From: Clostridiales bacterium
GTDB taxonomy: Bacteria > Bacillota > Clostridia > Christensenellales > Borkfalkiaceae
Assembly: GCA_022508285.1 (NCBI GenBank)
Contig: JAFLVN010000011.1
Location: forward strand, 1-40,691
Reading direction: 5' to 3'
DNA length: 40,691 bases
The position numbers and the translations under genes were made by a program. The notes under the pieces are model-generated. The model was not told the origin of the DNA. It ran no database searches and was given only the letters and a program-made list of their open reading frames with translations. Positions 1 through 34,443 of the stretch are shown piece after piece; positions within the stretch are counted from its first letter, which is position 1; each line of letters begins with the position of its first letter.

Positions 1-39
1 CTTTCGCCCTAAAAAGAACGGCATATTGCCGACTTTTTT
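1..39. repeat. Left copy of the hairpin repeat that precedes the DGR template
   Basis: This block matches 481-519 at 38 of 39 positions; the only difference is g/a at position 6 versus 486. It contains a strong hairpin (arms AAAAAG 11-16 plus CGGCA 19-23, and TGCCG 27-31 plus CTTTTT 33-38). In the right-hand copy, reading on the minus strand, the hairpin lies directly upstream of the template repeat. This copy runs to the window edge, so what follows it on the minus strand cannot be seen. It could lead into a second template, a target gene, or nothing. Confidence 0.85.
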
Positions 40-42
40 GTT

Positions 43-163
43 GTTGAGTTGTCATTCTGAGCGTAGGGCGTAGCCCGAAGTCGAAGAATCCCATAGTTTG
101 TATGCTTTATCGTGGGGATTCTTCACTGCGTTCAGAATGACATAGTTTTCAAAGGAACTCAAC
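43..163. repeat. MITE-like or REP-like inverted-repeat element
   Basis: The arms GTCATTCTGA (51-60) and TCAGAATGAC (132-141) are perfect inverted repeats. They continue inward through GAAGAATCCC (83-92) and GGGATTCTTC (115-124). The left arm carries its own small hairpin (GGGC 66-69, GCCC 73-76). The outer flanks GTTGAGTT (43-50) and AACTCAAC (156-163) are also inverted. There is no coding capacity. This gtcattctgagcg/gaagaatc type of hairpin resembles short non-autonomous repeats found dispersed in many bacterial genomes. It sits between the two copies of the DGR hairpin, suggesting insertion into or near the element. Confidence 0.7.
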
Positions 164-296
164 CACTGAAACAGTTCATGGCTTGAAAGGCAGAATTTAA
201 TCTGCTCCGTCAAGTCAAGGTTGAGTTGGTTTTACCGTTGCCGTATATGGCGCAGGCAGGACGAAAGTTCCCTTCAACTCAATCATATCTGCCCGG
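164..296. other. Non-coding DNA between the inverted-repeat element and the template
   Basis: No plausible gene is seen. Two small symmetries are visible: GCAGA/TCTGC around 191-205, and TTGAGTTG (221-228) facing CAACTCAA (275-282). The TTGAGTTG word also occurs at 44-51, so short related words recur through this non-coding stretch. On the minus strand this DNA lies directly 3' of the template repeat's stop codon, where DGR templates often carry sequence needed for priming. No such function can be shown here. Confidence 0.4.
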
Positions 297-489
297 TTAT
301 CCTTGAATGAACCGAGTACCGGAATCTACTTGCTCTTCTTTTGCAAGCGAGTGAAGCGCGGGCCGCACAGCGTACGAGACCGAGACGTTATTGTTAGCGT
401 TGACACCGGCAGGCGTCAAACCGTTTGCATTGTTAGCGTTATTGTTATTGCCGGAGCGCAGCCAGACCCTGTGATGCGAACTTTCACCC
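297..489 (-). other. DGR template repeat (TR)
   Basis: On the minus strand one frame reads RVWLRSG, then a stretch rich in Asn from about 453 down to 385 built on AAC and AAT codons separated by Ala and Gly, then VSVSYAVRPAL, and ends at TAA (297-299). Clustered AAC/AAT codons are the hallmark of DGR templates, because adenines are the positions randomised during mutagenic reverse transcription. The frame is closed by TAG about 12 codons before the Trp and has no start codon or ribosome site, so it is not itself a gene. WLRS...VRPAL resembles the C-terminal end of DUF6273-type/C-lectin-like targets (family recalled, not searched). The mutable core is probably about 361-480; exact TR ends need the matching variable repeat, which is not in the window. 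It lies 57 bases downstream of the avd stop, after a hairpin. Confidence 0.85.
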
Positions 490-519
490 TAAAAAGAACG
501 GCATATTGCCGACTTTTTT
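481..519 (-). terminator. Hairpin between avd and the TR (right copy of the repeat)
   Basis: The arms are AAAAAG 491-496 with CGGCA 499-503, and TGCCG 507-511 with CTTTTT 513-518. On either strand this forms a stem ending in a T-run, so it looks like a bidirectional intrinsic terminator. It sits between the end of avd (546) and the template, and its near-identical copy is at 1-39. It could end the RT-avd transcript, or set the boundary of a separately made template RNA. Confidence 0.7.
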
Positions 520-545
520 ATATTTGACCGTGGGATATGTGCGGA

Positions 546-1058
546 TTATTTCTTTTTGGTGCTTTTTACCCAGCCGTTCAAAAGTTTTTCCGTTTCCGCC
601 AATTGCCTTGCGATTATTGCCGTTTGACGGACGGTTATAGCCTGCTTTTTTCTTGCCGTTTCCGTATAGAAATCGATAAGCCTTAAACTGACCGCTGCGG
701 ACTTCTGATAGTTTAATCGCACGTCCTCCTCCCGCTCGAAATTGGCACGGTAGAGATTTTCGATGAGCTCGACCGAGGCGTTTTGCAGACGGGTAACTAT
801 ACTCCACCGCAATTTTTTGGGTGACTTTTCGGTTATTACGAAGATATATTCGCTCAGCTTTTTTGCGTGAGTAAATACCGCCATTTCCCTGTCGCGCGGG
901 GCGTTGAAGTCTTTAATCTGGAACGGCTTACGCGATGCGTTCTCCAAGCCCGCAAAGGCAGGTTCTTCTATGCCAGCCGACTCGGGCGTGTTAAGTTCCG
1001 CCTGTATTTCTTTTTCAATCATCTCGAGCGAGAGCTGTTCATTCGTTTTATTTTCCAT
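546..1058 (-). CDS. avd: Avd-like DGR accessory protein (four-helix bundle)
   Basis: The 170-residue protein has a variable N-terminal third (residues 1-55) and a helical remainder matching the Avd / 23S-intervening-sequence four-helix-bundle family. Recognisable segments are TRLQNASVELIENLYRANFE, a second helix with YQKSAAVSLRLIDF, and the C-terminal RQLAETEKLLNGWVKS. In studied DGRs, Avd forms a pentamer that binds the RT and the template RNA and is required for mutagenic retrohoming. Its ATG lies inside the end of the RT gene (11-base overlap), so the two are probably translationally coupled. The identification rests on recalled family pattern plus the RT and template neighbours. The N-terminal extension of about 50 residues is longer than typical Avd. 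Confidence 0.88.
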   Translation of the reverse strand: MENKTNEQLSLEMIEKEIQAELNTPESAGIEEPAFAGLENASRKPFQIKDFNAPRDREMAVFTHAKKLSEYIFVITEKSPKKLRWSIVTRLQNASVELIENLYRANFEREEDVRLNYQKSAAVSLRLIDFYTETARKKQAITVRQTAIIARQLAETEKLLNGWVKSTKKK

Positions 1059-2169
1059 TTGTTTTTACCACTACTACGTTATTTGAATATGCAAGGAGTT
1101 TTGCCCAAAGTTCTTTTTTTATTTTATAACTTTTTGCATGCTTTAAATGCCCGTTGAATGCGGCAAGCGATTGCGTTACTCTTTCGGAATCTATTAGTCC
1201 CTCTATACACGCCTTTTTTAAAAGACGGGCTCGCCAGCGCAGCCGGCGTTTGGTCTTTTTCTTTACGGTTTTTATGAGTTTGCCGCTCGGGGTGACGAAA
1301 TAGCGGAATCCGAGGTACGTTACGCCGTTTTTAAGCGGGAATATCTGAGTTTTGGAGTTGAACTTCAAACCGAGCTTATTCACCTCTTCGGTTATCAGTT
1401 TAAGCGCATCCTGAAGGAATTTTTTATCTTCGTGGACGAGCACAAAGTCGTCCATATAGCGTGAGTAAATTTTTACACGCAGTTTTTCCTTGACGAAGCG
1501 GTCAACCTCGTTGAGATAGAACATTCCGAAAATCTGGCTCGTTTGGTTGCCTATCGGAACGCCTCTGCCGCTCTTTGCAGGGTCGGGAACGTCTATTTCA
1601 AAGCCGTAGCTTTGGAGATATTCAGGGGCGGTGTGGTAACTGTCTATGATGTGCGAGATGAGATTTTTTAATTTTTGATCACGAAATTCCGAGCAGAAAA
1701 TACGCTTTAACTGCTCGTGCGGAATAGTCGGAAAATATTTTAAAATGTCGCACTTTAATATGTAACCGTTTACACCGTGCGTTCGCACAAATTTACGTAG
1801 TTTATCTTCAAACCGCCGCAGCGCAAAGTGACTGCCTTTTCCCTTTTGGCAGACTGCGTTATCCAAAATCGCACGTTCAGTGAAGTACGGCGCAAGAACG
1901 TCGTCGCAAATTACGTGCTGGACGACTCGGTCGGAATAGTGCAGGGTTTGAATTTCTCGCCTTTTGGGCTCACAGACCGTAAAATGGCTGTATCCGCTTA
2001 TTTTAAAAGAGCCATCGTTAAGGCGTCGGTATACGTTATATATGTTACCTAACATATCCGTTTCAAACTTAACGAGTGGCTTTTTGTCACGTTTTGCGGC
2101 ACGTCCGCGCATGTGCCCCTGGTACAGCGCCTCAAACGTGAAAACGTCTTCAAATTTTTGCTCAATCAT
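1048..2169 (-). CDS. DGR-type reverse transcriptase
   Basis: The 373-residue protein has the RT palm motifs in order: LKCDILKYFPTI with Asp141, VPIGNQTSQ at 205-212, YSRYMDDFVL with Asp240/Asp241, and VTYLGFRY near 285. The IGxxxSQ form of motif 4, rather than QGxxxSP of group II introns, is typical of DGR RTs. There is no maturase, X or endonuclease domain. In a DGR this enzyme copies the template RNA with errors at adenines, and the cDNA replaces the variable repeat of a target gene. It is followed by avd with an 11-base overlap. The start has no good Shine-Dalgarno. A sigma-A-like promoter lies at 2209-2237. Confidence 0.92.
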   Translation of the reverse strand: MIEQKFEDVFTFEALYQGHMRGRAAKRDKKPLVKFETDMLGNIYNVYRRLNDGSFKISGYSHFTVCEPKRREIQTLHYSDRVVQHVICDDVLAPYFTERAILDNAVCQKGKGSHFALRRFEDKLRKFVRTHGVNGYILKCDILKYFPTIPHEQLKRIFCSEFRDQKLKNLISHIIDSYHTAPEYLQSYGFEIDVPDPAKSGRGVPIGNQTSQIFGMFYLNEVDRFVKEKLRVKIYSRYMDDFVLVHEDKKFLQDALKLITEEVNKLGLKFNSKTQIFPLKNGVTYLGFRYFVTPSGKLIKTVKKKTKRRLRWRARLLKKACIEGLIDSERVTQSLAAFNGHLKHAKSYKIKKELWAKLLAYSNNVVVVKTNGK

Positions 2170-2208
2170 TCGTTAAAAAAGTCCGATTAAAATAATGTGG
2201 TAACAAAT

Positions 2209-2237
2209 ATTTTATCAATGCGCTTTGAAATTGTCAA
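2209..2237 (-). promoter_or_regulatory. Promoter of the RT-avd operon
   Basis: On the minus strand TTGACA (2237-2232) is followed after 17 bases by TAAAAT (2214-2209), preceded by an extended TGA. The -35 box overlaps the stop codon of the recombinase gene (2236-2234). RT and avd can therefore be transcribed independently of the recombinase. Confidence 0.6.
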
Positions 2238-3160
2238 TAAATTGCGGCGTCGGCAGTCAACATTTTACCGATACGGTTCATCATTGCGTTTTGGTGTTCC
2301 CAAAAGCTGTGTGCGTAGCGCTTCAGCGTTACTACGGGGGATTTGTGCCCGAGTATGCCGGAAAGAGATTTTACGTCCATTCCGCACTCCAGAGCGCGCG
2401 TGGCAAAGGTGTGTCGAAGCGCATGAAAACCACGATGTCCGATATCCAGCTTTTTTAAAATAACTGCAAAAGTCTTTTGATAGGAACGCACGGAAACGTC
2501 CTCGCCGTTGGTGCCACTGATTACAAAGTTGCTTTTACTTTGCTTTTTTATGACTTTAAGATACGGAACAAGCTGCGCCGGCAGCGGAATTATCCGCCTC
2601 GATGAGTTGGTTTTGGGCGTATCTATGACCTTTTTATATACGCCTCCGACCCATTTGTCGGTGCAGGTTTTGGTGACAGTTATGCGACGGTGGGTGAAAT
2701 CTATATCCCCCCATTCAAGCGCCAAAAGCTCGCCCACACGCAAGCCCGTATAAAGGCAAAGAACTAAACCGTAATTTTTGGGCTTATAGCTGTTAAAAAC
2801 GTATTGTTCTATTTTTTTCTGCTCTGCCCGAGTGAAACTTTCAACCGTCTTTTCGGTGGATTTGGGGTATTCTATAACGTCCGAATACTGCGTTGCCACC
2901 CGCTCCATTTTTTGTGCACGGGTAAGCGAGCTTTTTATCACGTTGATTATCCCCGTTACCGTGTTGCTTGAGTACTTTTCGGAAAGCTCCGCAGTGAATT
3001 TCTGCAACACGAATGGAGTTAATTCCGCCATGTCGTACCCTCCGATGCCCGGAACGATTTGCAAACGCACTATTGCCTTATATCGCTCCAACGTCCTCGA
3101 CTTTACCGCTGGCTTTACGCAAGTTGCGAGCCATTCGTTAAGCCATTGATGATATTTCAT
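2234..3160 (-). CDS. Tyrosine recombinase (phage/Tn916-type integrase)
   Basis: The 308-residue protein has an N-terminal SAM-like core-binding domain (about residues 1-100: QWLNEWLATCVKPAVKSRTL) and a C-terminal catalytic domain. The visible catalytic residues are Arg in TGLRVGE, the HALRH pair, a His in GILGHKS, and the nucleophile Tyr in LKRYAHS. It lacks the extra N-terminal arm-binding domain of many ICE integrases. The start codon follows a purine-rich GGGAGGGTAGG. It lies at the chromosomal side of the DGR, directly before the non-coding DNA bordering nadE, so it probably integrates or excises the element that carries the DGR. The element's other end is outside the window. Confidence 0.9.
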   Translation of the reverse strand: MKYHQWLNEWLATCVKPAVKSRTLERYKAIVRLQIVPGIGGYDMAELTPFVLQKFTAELSEKYSSNTVTGIINVIKSSLTRAQKMERVATQYSDVIEYPKSTEKTVESFTRAEQKKIEQYVFNSYKPKNYGLVLCLYTGLRVGELLALEWGDIDFTHRRITVTKTCTDKWVGGVYKKVIDTPKTNSSRRIIPLPAQLVPYLKVIKKQSKSNFVISGTNGEDVSVRSYQKTFAVILKKLDIGHRGFHALRHTFATRALECGMDVKSLSGILGHKSPVVTLKRYAHSFWEHQNAMMNRIGKMLTADAAIY

Positions 3161-7243: not shown

Positions 7244-8017
7244 TTATATATTACTGTTGAGGTCGTACAGATATTTTAAGCCGCTGAGGGTGAGCAGCTT
7301 GTCCACTTGGTCTATGCAGGAAATTTCGCCTGCGATAACTTCGGAAAAGCCGCCCGTTGCGATAACCTTGATATTATCCGCTTTCATCTCACGCTTGATT
7401 TTTTTGACTATGTACTCGACGAGTCCCGCAAAGCCGAAGAATATTCCCGACTGCATGTTGGTGACGGTGTTTTTGCCGATAACCGATTTCGGGCGTTCTA
7501 TCTCCACTCTCGGAAGCTTTGCCGTGCCGTTTACAAGACTGTCGAGCGAGCCCTTTATTCCGGGGGCGATGACGCCGCCGATAAACTGACTCTTTTCGTC
7601 GATAACGTTGAAAGTTGTTGCCGTGCCGAAATCTATTATTATAAGCGGGTAACCGTACTTTTTTACGGCGGCAACGTTGTTTACAACTCTGTCCGCCCCC
7701 ACCTCTTTGGCGTCGTCCACTTTGAGGTTGAGCCCTGTCTTTAACCCCGGTCCAAGCATTAAGGGCTGAATTTTAAGATAAGTGCGGCACATTCTCTCTA
7801 GTGTGTAATCGAGCTGAGGGACAACCGAAGAAATTATACCGCCCTCCATATCAGACGCCTTTATGCCGTTGTTGCCCAAAATCGATATAAGCTGACCGCC
7901 GTATTCGTCGGAGGTCTTTTTGTGTTCGGTTGCAACACGGAAGCTTATTTTAAGATTACCACCGTCAAATACGGCAAATTTAATATTGGTATTGCCTACG
8001 TCAAGACAAATTATCAT
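7244..8017 (-). CDS. coaX: Type III pantothenate kinase
   Basis: CoaX phosphorylates pantothenate, the first step of coenzyme A synthesis, and belongs to the ASKHA fold. The 257-residue protein begins with the phosphate-binding motif LDVGNTNIKFAVF, has GADRVVNNVAA (residues about 102-113), the IIIDFGTATTFNVID adenosine/phosphate loop, and GGVIAPGIKGSLDSL. The length fits the family. Its ATG shares its A with the TAA of the upstream membrane protein (TAATG), so translation is likely coupled. The upstream protein looks like an ECF S component and may import pantothenate for this enzyme. Confidence 0.95.
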   Translation of the reverse strand: MIICLDVGNTNIKFAVFDGGNLKISFRVATEHKKTSDEYGGQLISILGNNGIKASDMEGGIISSVVPQLDYTLERMCRTYLKIQPLMLGPGLKTGLNLKVDDAKEVGADRVVNNVAAVKKYGYPLIIIDFGTATTFNVIDEKSQFIGGVIAPGIKGSLDSLVNGTAKLPRVEIERPKSVIGKNTVTNMQSGIFFGFAGLVEYIVKKIKREMKADNIKVIATGGFSEVIAGEISCIDQVDKLLTLSGLKYLYDLNSNI

Positions 8018-8676: not shown

Positions 8677-8934
8677 AGAAACCTCCGTCGGGTTCGCTTC
8701 GGATACCCGCAGTTAAAAAAATATTATACTTATAAACGGTCGGATTCAATTAAAATATCCGCCGAAAGTATCTGAAAAACGTTAATTATTATAACATTCG
8801 TATTTAAGATTTGCAAGCGATTGAAAGCGTTGTAACATTTTAACGAGAAAATAAATATTATTTAATATATACAATACTGCACGCAACTACAAACTATATT
8901 ACATATGCCGTGCAGCTCTATCAAAGGAGGAATT

Positions 8935-9193: not shown

Positions 9194-9713
9194 TTATTAA
9201 AAGATATTTATATATCGCAACAACCGTTTTGGCGTCGGCTATCTCTCCGCTTTCAATCATTGAAAGAACCTTATCGAGCGGAATAAATTCGGCGTTTAAA
9301 AGCTCGCCCTCGTCAAGATTTTGTTGTGATTTCGTCGATTTTTCCGCAAAATATATGTGAATAATTTCATCCGTATATCCCGGTGAAGGATATATGTCCG
9401 CAAGGTGCTTAACCTCCGCTTTGTAGCCCGTTTCCTCTTCAAGCTCCCGTGCGGCGGCGGCTTGGGGAAGCTCGCCCTCGTTTATTATCCCAGCAGGGAT
9501 TTCATACATTTCCTTATTATAAGCATAACGGAATTGGCGGACAAGCAATACTTTATTATCGCAGACGAAAAGTACGGCAGCGCCGCCGGAATGTTTGACA
9601 ATTTCCCGCTTTGCGGTTTTTCCGTTTGAAAGTAGCACGTCGTCAACGGTCAGAGTCAGAATTTTCCCCTTATAAATTACTTTGCTGTCAAGCCTCTTTT
9701 CGCTGAATTTCAT
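9186..9713 (-). CDS. Nudix hydrolase, ADP-ribose pyrophosphatase type
   Basis: The 175-residue protein has a complete Nudix box beginning GIINEGELPQAAAARELEEE and ending TGY (Gx5Ex7RELxEExG), which binds the metal ions that drive diphosphate cleavage. The N-terminal VLLVRQFRYAYNKEMYEIPAG is typical of the ADP-ribose pyrophosphatase (NudF-like) branch, and PSPGYTDEIIHIYFA also fits. The likely role is removal of free ADP-ribose from NAD turnover. Its ATG overlaps the stop of the upstream unknown gene by 4 bases, so they form a coupled pair. Confidence 0.9.
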   Translation of the reverse strand: MKFSEKRLDSKVIYKGKILTLTVDDVLLSNGKTAKREIVKHSGGAAVLFVCDNKVLLVRQFRYAYNKEMYEIPAGIINEGELPQAAAARELEEETGYKAEVKHLADIYPSPGYTDEIIHIYFAEKSTKSQQNLDEGELLNAEFIPLDKVLSMIESGEIADAKTVVAIYKYLLIKK

Positions 9714-34067: not shown

Positions 34068-34079
34068 CTATAATAATTT

Positions 34080-34432
34080 GAGATTAATCTGTAAGCCGAG
34101 TTCTGTCGTGTACGGTCATCTATCTACGCTCGCAGTCGCCTGCGAGCTCAAGCGATATTAACGGACGTAAACGGGCGGGCAGCCCCTGCATTTAAACAAG
34201 CTTACGCCCCAATCTTGCATCGGGTGGGGTTTAATTGGCTTGCTCCGTTACCGGAGCAACGGTGAGCTCTTACCTCGCCATTCCAACCTTACCGCACGAT
34301 ACGATGTGCGGCGGTATATTTCTGTTCACTTTCCTTGAAGTCGCCTCCACCTGCCGTTAACAGGCACCCTTGCCCTGAGATGCTCGGACTTTCCTCACGC
34401 TGCATTGCAGCCCGCGACCGTATAATTAACTC
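34080..34432 (-). ncRNA. rnpB: RNase P RNA
   Basis: This RNA is the catalytic part of RNase P, which trims tRNA 5' ends. On the minus strand the hallmark blocks occur in order: GAGGAAAGTCCGAGC (CRI), AGGGTGCC, CAGAAATACCGCC, GGTAAGAGCTCACCG, and GACAGAACTCGGCTTACAG near the 3' end. The 5' GAGTTAATT can pair with the 3' ATTAATCTC as helix P1, which sets the ends. The length of about 353 and these blocks indicate the common bacterial A type. A promoter is at 34444-34473. Confidence 0.95.
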
Positions 34433-34443
34433 AAATTACAGCT

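Follow-up and report, generated by a model that had tools for sequence, protein, structure and literature searches.

A chromosomal diversity-generating retroelement with an unusual target and template layout, and silent variant cassettes in related genomes

The DNA analyzed here, called the window below, is the whole of contig JAFLVN010000011.1 (40,691 nucleotides; C3) of the 1.47-Mb draft genome GCA_022508285.1, from a gut-type Clostridiales bacterium of the Borkfalkiaceae. At its start lies a diversity-generating retroelement (DGR), with a reverse transcriptase (RT), the accessory protein Avd and an adenine-rich template repeat (TR). It is a real DGR of known kind, whose target and template layout is unusual. 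Genomes, contigs and loci carry our G, C and L numbers.

The retroelement at the contig end

The following features, all on the minus strand, are referred to throughout (ORF, open reading frame):

1-39, minus strand: second copy of the hairpin plus AGGGCGAAAG, the first part of a second TR unit that the contig end truncates
156-359, minus strand: Sp RNA, directly 3' of TR1, ending in the stem AACTCAACC/GGTTGAGTT; 164 bits with RNA model R1
351-464, minus strand: TR1 core (WLRSGNNNNANNANGLTPAGVNANNNVSVSYAVRPALH), 114 nt, matching the variable region (VR) of the target
481-490, minus strand: AGGGTGAAAG element just upstream of TR1
499-511, minus strand: hairpin CGGCAATATGCCG just upstream of TR1
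546-1058, minus strand: Avd ORF, 170 aa, overlapping the end of the RT ORF
1048-2169, minus strand: DGR RT ORF, 373 aa, with IGNQTSQ at residue 206 and YMDD at residue 238
2234-3160, minus strand: tyrosine recombinase (integrase) ORF, 308 aa, adjoining the RT; Pfam Phage_integrase 2e-26

By sequence, the closest solved structure to the RT is 8ub7_A ('Reverse transcriptase', E 5e-33), which we take to be the Bordetella phage DGR enzyme; an RT from a group II intron follows at E 9e-9. The ORF also matches the PHROG and Pfam RT families. YxDD is the catalytic motif of reverse transcriptases, and the window RT carries it. Its other motif is of the GxxxSQ type and fits the (I/V/L)GxxxSQ motif of DGR RTs (PMC3521204). 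Group II intron, retron and defence RTs were considered and rejected, all seven matching NCBIfam models (group II, retron, Drt) being far below cut-off; PADLOC, used here without cut-offs, returned 69 RT-type models for the ORF, with a general RT on top. On its motifs, the PDB sequence match and the family models we class the enzyme as a DGR RT, and the grouping with group II introns or retrons that had been named beforehand as the outcome unfavorable to a DGR did not appear. It is the single RT match in its genome. A phage origin was rejected as well: six peptide patterns found no relative of the RT in viral_contigs, and the RT of the nearest named phage in the search, nd12, is 39% identical.

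The Avd ORF scores above the Pfam cut-off for bAvd (44.2 bits, cut-off 40) and matches PHROG 3206 Avd (E 9e-16), which gives the element the accessory protein of a DGR; the NCBIfam Avd model reaches 51.8 bits, under its cut-off of 80, and the bAvd match begins at residue 65, leaving an N-terminal extension. Related loci were drawn from a genome collection, which yielded 31 RT loci, mostly from metagenome-assembled genomes titled Clostridia or Clostridiales. An Avd homologue is near the RT in 30 of the 31, the exception being L047, where the contig ends 22 nt past the RT match. The integrase has a homologue at four of them (L041, L042, L043, L045), some loci being short contigs; it was therefore rejected as an essential DGR part and is probably a passenger.

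TR1 is an A-rich, non-coding template near the RT: 23% A, rich in AAY codons and stop-free, yet within an open stretch of only 63 codons. AGGG/GGGC-type elements resembling those upstream of it stand before most TR units of relatives. Bases 1-39 are 97% identical to the stretch upstream of TR1 and contig C7 starts inside a homologous TR unit, and the window genome has at least two TR units. Three VR/TR-like units (TR1, the partial second unit and the VR) and two Sp RNAs make up its complement, other TR-like matches (C34, C1, C78, C16, C67) being short. Rfam at gathering scores gave no match across the TR/Sp stretch, and promoter-like sites of the kind standing before the G021 cassettes described below were looked for upstream of the own TR and not found. 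Between TR1 and the contig end, 51-142 is an intergenic repeat-like stretch (CATTCTGA...TCAGAATG).

The original prediction, made from the letters of the window, had called an RT with IGNQTSQ and YMDD on the minus strand, an overlapping Avd-like gene, the order int-RT-avd-TR and the absence of a target from the window. Each of these calls agrees with what we find, the window being a whole contig and the target lying on C7. Its non-coding, A-rich template beyond a hairpin is present too, with the extent corrected from 361-480 to the core at 351-464.

The target, its variable repeat and the donor

A genome-wide search for TR-like sequence with mismatches biased to adenines, suggested with the original prediction, found one at C7:1825-1938, and the DGR reading was borne out by it: 16 of the 26 A positions of TR1 are mismatched as against 11 of the 88 non-A positions (Fisher p=1.7e-6). 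This VR lies in a gene and differs at template adenines as in other DGRs, although TR1 leaves the 11 non-A changes unexplained. The gene, C7:622-8544, is the only target in the assembly and encodes 2640 aa, with the VR at aa ~402-439, within the first sixth of the protein. The translation shows a hydrophobic segment at the N-terminus and another, C-terminal one near aa 2590, as well as MBG domains and a DUF6273 match (26.8 bits against a cut-off of 23.5) that covers aa 358-441; by these features the product appears to be a giant surface-anchored protein with its VR in an N-terminal DUF6273 (C-type-lectin-like) domain. DUF6273 is also above the Pfam cut-off in the targets of L044 and L051, and a PDB sequence search with the target-domain profile gave no match. 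In 12 relative target loci the VR lies at aa ~294-469 of ORFs of 564 to >2690 aa, except in L046 (contig-cut) and L054 (a stop in the VR splits the ORF). A C-terminal VR is near-universal among DGR targets according to PMC8144416; this typical, not defining, trait is absent from the own target.

The tentaclins of the gut phages nd4 and nd12, as described in PMC10743442, likewise have an N-terminal DUF6273/C-lec domain that contains the VR and precedes further beta domains. They are encoded by phages and have between one and four Ig domains. The target here, with its DUF6273 and MBG domains, has 2640 aa, and its place on a chromosomal contig and its hydrophobic C-terminal anchor set it apart. 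Model R1 found no Sp RNA around the nd12 RT. PMC4891356 describes a 4623-aa LapA-type adhesin as a DGR target; 21 VRs are merged in it, and most of the changes are at bases other than A. The present system has one internal VR and tandem TR units along which the structured RNA recurs.

Immediately after the VR the own target carries a hairpin-forming repeat, GCCGC-GCAA-GCGGC, as DGRs do. A stem of at least 5 bp, in frame and starting 16-19 nt downstream of the first base of the last VR codon, is present in 14 of 15 targets, and shuffles of the post-VR stretches give 0.27 such hairpins on average (maximum 3); the C154 target of G021 is without one. The stems show compensatory changes, with GCCGC/GCGGC replaced by GCCGTGC/GCACGGC in L060 and GCCGCGC/GCGCGGC in L070. 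In the Bordetella phage such a hairpin is required for homing, and phage DGRs have stems of 7-10 bp with GRNA loops (PMC3240598). Stems here are 5-7 bp, within the coding frame, and no more than some of the loops match GRNA, that of the own target (GCAA) being an exception; by analogy, the hairpin could serve as the return signal. PMC8144416 suggests that VRs are placed C-terminally probably because coding would otherwise restrict the return signals; unlike those near-universal C-terminal targets, this group of loci keeps the hairpin inside the frame of giant proteins.

In all, 25 VRs (the own one and those of relatives) were compared with template units by an A-aware repeat search and by direct comparison. 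Fifteen have at most 3 non-A mismatches to some unit of their own genome, with many A lost; clean examples are L042 (18/37 A, 1/80 non-A), L045 (20/32 and 1/82) and L055 (12/33 and 0/84).

Several points count against this account of the locus. The other 10 of the 25 VRs have >3 non-A mismatches to every compared unit, L051 through a one-codon gap and L127 through the lack of a usable alignment. The direct comparison of L051 was out of register by one codon, and with the gap respected it joins the clean VRs, with 19 mismatches at A and 1 at non-A in 98 nt. The remaining nine comprise the own VR (11/88 non-A), L125 in G089 (17/86), one VR in G040 (14/91), one in G068 (10/89), pairs in G020 (32/94 and 37/94) and G021 (14/87 and 19/87), and L127 in G050, which gave no usable alignment. 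TR1 is excluded as direct donor of the own VR by its 11 non-A mismatches. DUF6273 is under the cut-off in the L040 and L097 targets and unreported in the G021 C175 and G068 targets, and L111 and L088 are also among the targets where it is below cut-off or absent. The genomes are drafts, one per species, and VRs were compared within genomes, so that DGR activity is presumed from sequence; the adjacency of C3 and C7 is likewise deduced from homology and the gene order of relatives.

The mismatches themselves point to where the donor may be found. TR2 fits worse than TR1 (21/77 non-A over the 92 nt available) and was rejected as well. Six of the 11 non-A changes between TR1 and the own VR are wobble bases of AAY codons. 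Where a VR is set against the wrong unit, L040 gives 13/90 and 10/87 non-A mismatches (5 and 3 at wobble bases) and L044 gives 12/85 (4 at wobble bases); against the right unit the two loci give 1/90 and 3/84, with no wobble changes. The own pattern resembles the wrong-unit comparison, which makes another template unit the likely donor, and the present VR was probably written from a further unit that was lost or collapsed in the assembly between C3 and C7. RT, avd, TR and target follow in one order on a single contig in L040, L042, L044, L060 and L067; from this order in relatives, and since C3 and C7 both end inside a second unit, we infer that C7 (plus) is the continuation of C3 (minus).

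Some TRs contain an in-frame TAA (L054:6300-6413 and 7787-7900; L067:11669; L065:8171; L053:8030). The VR of L054 retains the TAA and that of L067 has TAT there; with a stop coded in the TR, each rewriting could switch the target on or off. An in-frame TAG stands in the VR of L124 (G089:C94) within a long target frame, the VR otherwise differing from its TR at 16/26 A and 2/88 non-A. In L055 (7782 and 11981) the TR is inverted relative to RT and target, and upstream of the RT there is another long ORF containing a VR-like segment.

Tandem templates and the structured Sp RNA

Among 150 related genomes searched (RT match threshold E<=1e-20), 25 contain an RT match, the own one included, and 14 of the 25 are at >=63% identity, all of these within the genus. 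Tandem TR units stand at several RT loci: six in L046 (~345-bp spacing), four in L053, three in L040, at least three in L052 and two in L044, and the RNA model adds L056 and L063 with three each and L057, L061 and L070 with two each. Every unit has a complete downstream RNA in L046 and L052, only the last one in L040, L044 and L053. The VR donor is unit 2 in L046 (13/23 A, 1/65 non-A) and unit 1 in L040 and L044. In L061, TR units at 9601 (-) and 11769 (+), each followed by Sp RNA, flank one RT on opposite strands, and its genome (G335) has two more Sp matches far away.

The RNA in question, ~200 nt long, follows complete TR units. Its position is that of the spacer RNA in the Bordetella phage DGR, and it is called Sp by this analogy. 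Alignment A1, from which model R1 was built, holds 25 of 38 unit ends, the window sequence being one of the 25; six truncated units, four further L046 units, a near-identical L052 unit, the contig-cut L065 and the divergent L070 were left out. RNAalifold predicts 37 pairs, 26 of them with changes on both sides. Pairing holds in 94.6% of cells as against 79.6% after shuffling, and covariation is 0.537 as against 0.250, a value that 0 of 500 shuffles reach. When the alignment is slid by 1-3 columns, pairing falls to 34-51%. The structure was derived from A1 itself, so that one of these controls is favorable by construction.

Searched over the own genome, R1 matches in the window and on C7 only. 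At least one match is present at 26 of the 31 RT loci of the collection and, within the genus, in 16 of the 93 genomes searched; none was found among 150 genomes of 53 other genera or 201 genomes of 18 other genera, with stricter filters both times. Sixteen further genomes reached through the collection all carry the RNA, in 1 to 4 copies, and the claim that Sp RNA is confined to the genus was dropped. So strongly covarying an RNA gives a handle for finding DGR templates that have no RT nearby.

The element thus shares with the Bordetella phage BPP-1 DGR a DGR-type RT, Avd, an A-rich TR, A-specific change of the VR and a hairpin repeat after it. It differs from BPP-1 in the order RT-avd-TR-target, in having several TR units and in the position of the VR inside a 2640-aa chromosomal surface protein.

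Silent cassettes in two congeners

Searches with a peptide profile gave 3 matches in the own genome, 65 in G021 and 60 in G068. Cassettes were taken from 16 stretches of G021 and 21 of G068 chosen around such matches, so that the counts are minima. Of the 64 units in the G021 stretches, three are A-rich TRs next to the RT and two are VRs within long ORFs; the other 59 are silent cassettes, scattered over the genome in 19 clusters with a spacing of typically ~192 nt. G068 has 53 protein-silent cassettes. Silent copies homologous to an expressed variable cassette, as this arrangement provides, are found in the congeners only. Against the best TR, AAY codons of the G021 cassettes are mismatched at frequencies of 0.68/0.58/0.22 at positions 1/2/3, and other codons at their non-A bases in 20, 11 and 30%; the G068 values are 0.64/0.51/0.27 and 18, 14 and 26%. 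The low mismatch at the third AAY position suggests that the cassettes were made by A-specific writing and not by general codon change. The cassette at L102:4608 in G068 looks fresh, with 14/29 A and 2/85 non-A mismatches to a TR.

An ordinary DGR might leave such copies behind, with the extra TR-like units and the cassettes of relatives being duplicated or misplaced by-products that decay without a role. TR duplication is a simple outcome of recombination, and both multi-TR DGRs (PMC6642488) and one VR outside coding regions (PMC3521204) have been noted before. G037 (L089-L092, L129) has nine cassette matches and five Sp RNAs and gave no RT match; seven of its units were read, with A of 0.11-0.20 and no TR-type AAY runs, and it looks like a relic archive. 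The state of the cassettes makes us regard this explanation as improbable. Frame-blind nucleotide anchors, which pick up TRs and VRs as well, locate 63 units in G021 and 57 in G068; every one of them has a length divisible by three and lacks an in-frame stop, even though an upstream in-frame start (ATG/GTG/TTG) is missing from 40 of the 59 G021 cassettes, with GTG or TTG only in 16 and ATG in 3. A TATAAT-like -10 box stands at a fixed distance before 50 of the 59 G021 cassettes (shuffled mean 11.9, maximum 20) and 35 of the 53 in G068 (mean 10.2, maximum 17). Decay would also hardly account for target VRs that are exact copies of cassettes, which two species provide.

In G021, the VR of the C175 target equals a C94 cassette over 114 nt; in G068, that of the C46 target equals the first of six compact C16 cassettes over 116 nt. 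Flanks are unrelated. Such identities could be assembly artefacts: hypervariable VRs assemble poorly and every genome here is a draft, and only ~220 nt separate the G021 cassette from the end of its contig. We consider this the least probable of the alternatives, given that the identity recurs in two species, that the contigs continue through the match with unrelated flanks in both, and that the next best unit scores far lower (62 and 70 versus 111 and 114).

If the identities are real, the question is how they arose. The two VRs have at least 14 (G021 C175) and at least 10 (G068) non-A mismatches to every TR read, and are thus not fresh products of those TRs, which favors copying from cassette to gene. 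The exact pairs contain 18 (G021) and 14 (G068) unchanged adenines; over nine TR-VR pairs the change per A is ~0.48 (136/282), so that the chance of no change is ~8e-6 and 1e-4. One cassette pair in G068 is a mosaic, 91 nt exact followed by an altered 3' end. All of this would suit classical RecA-type gene conversion as in vls, with the DGR as original writer only, a serious if tentative possibility in our view; yet conversion needs neither the -10 boxes on most cassettes nor the template RNA in which many arrays end.

Those same features would fit a reading in which the cassettes are themselves RNA templates, copied by the RT into the VR nearly faithfully because they are A-poor. All six L077 cassettes are preceded by promoter-like sites (13 sites, some counted in two registers, versus 2.9 expected), Sp RNA stands at array ends, and the clean donors of L040 and L044 are upstream units that lack a complete Sp of their own, so that the RNAs of an array may share one. 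We think this rather unlikely, since 0 of 18 and 0 of 14 adenines are changed in the exact pairs. In G068 no TR or Sp RNA was found within 10 kb of the RT (L048) and four A-rich units are on another contig, so that the RT seems to act in trans.

As a whole, we regard as probable a chromosomal DGR with multiplied templates, a giant target with an internal VR, and cassette arrays in congeners. RT and Avd would copy the RNA of the A-rich template (TR plus Sp RNA) into cDNA, randomizing adenines, and the cDNA would replace the VR in the DUF6273 domain of the giant surface-anchored protein, the gene for which probably lies just past the contig end; the DNA hairpin (GCCGC-N4-GCGGC) in the reading frame just after the VR would act as return signal. 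The template appears multiplied: the window genome has at least two TR units, and another one, missing from the assembly, probably wrote the present VR. Two congeners would in addition store DGR-mutated units as scattered arrays of silent cassettes, from which variants could be re-used. We lean slightly toward a further step, in which the DGR of this genus writes an archive of A-mutated silent cassettes that are copied back unmutated into the giant surface protein, the window genome being a member of this family whose TR array is small. Sequence support for the archive comes from the two relatives and none of it from the genome of the window itself, and the direction and enzymology of the copying are deduced from sequence comparison.

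The archive meets difficulties of its own. Silent cassettes are absent from the own assembly, where only TR1, the partial second unit and the VR were found, and the second G021 target (C154) has no cassette match. Random cassettes taken as templates also raise the A/non-A ratio, to 1.88 in G021 (2.64 with real TRs) and 1.59 in G068 (2.46). The exact matches, falling at a 114-nt repeat in draft assemblies, could be artefacts of the kind considered above.

The closest parallel to G021 and G068 is vls of Lyme Borrelia, which likewise has few targets, many homologous silent cassettes and exact cassette copies in the target. Unlike vls, the cassettes here bear the A-specific signature of a DGR in genomes that contain a DGR RT and TRs, and the arrays are scattered, many of them ending in structured RNA; the window's own genome has no such cassette system. 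Against known multi-TR/multi-VR DGRs, the difference is an unlinked, non-coding cassette library in two relatives. A real archive would unite two strategies so far known separately, hypermutation de novo by an RT and the re-expression of stored variants by copying, in a bacterial system that would both invent variants by mutagenic reverse transcription and remember them. It would then become testable whether successful DGR products are retained by bacteria and used again. Among the matches listed in a search of open-licence papers by title and start of abstract, none describes the combination of an archive written by a DGR with its re-expression through copying.

Elsewhere in the window, Rfam places a bacterial RNase P RNA at 34075-34433 and a pan motif at 8681-8764.

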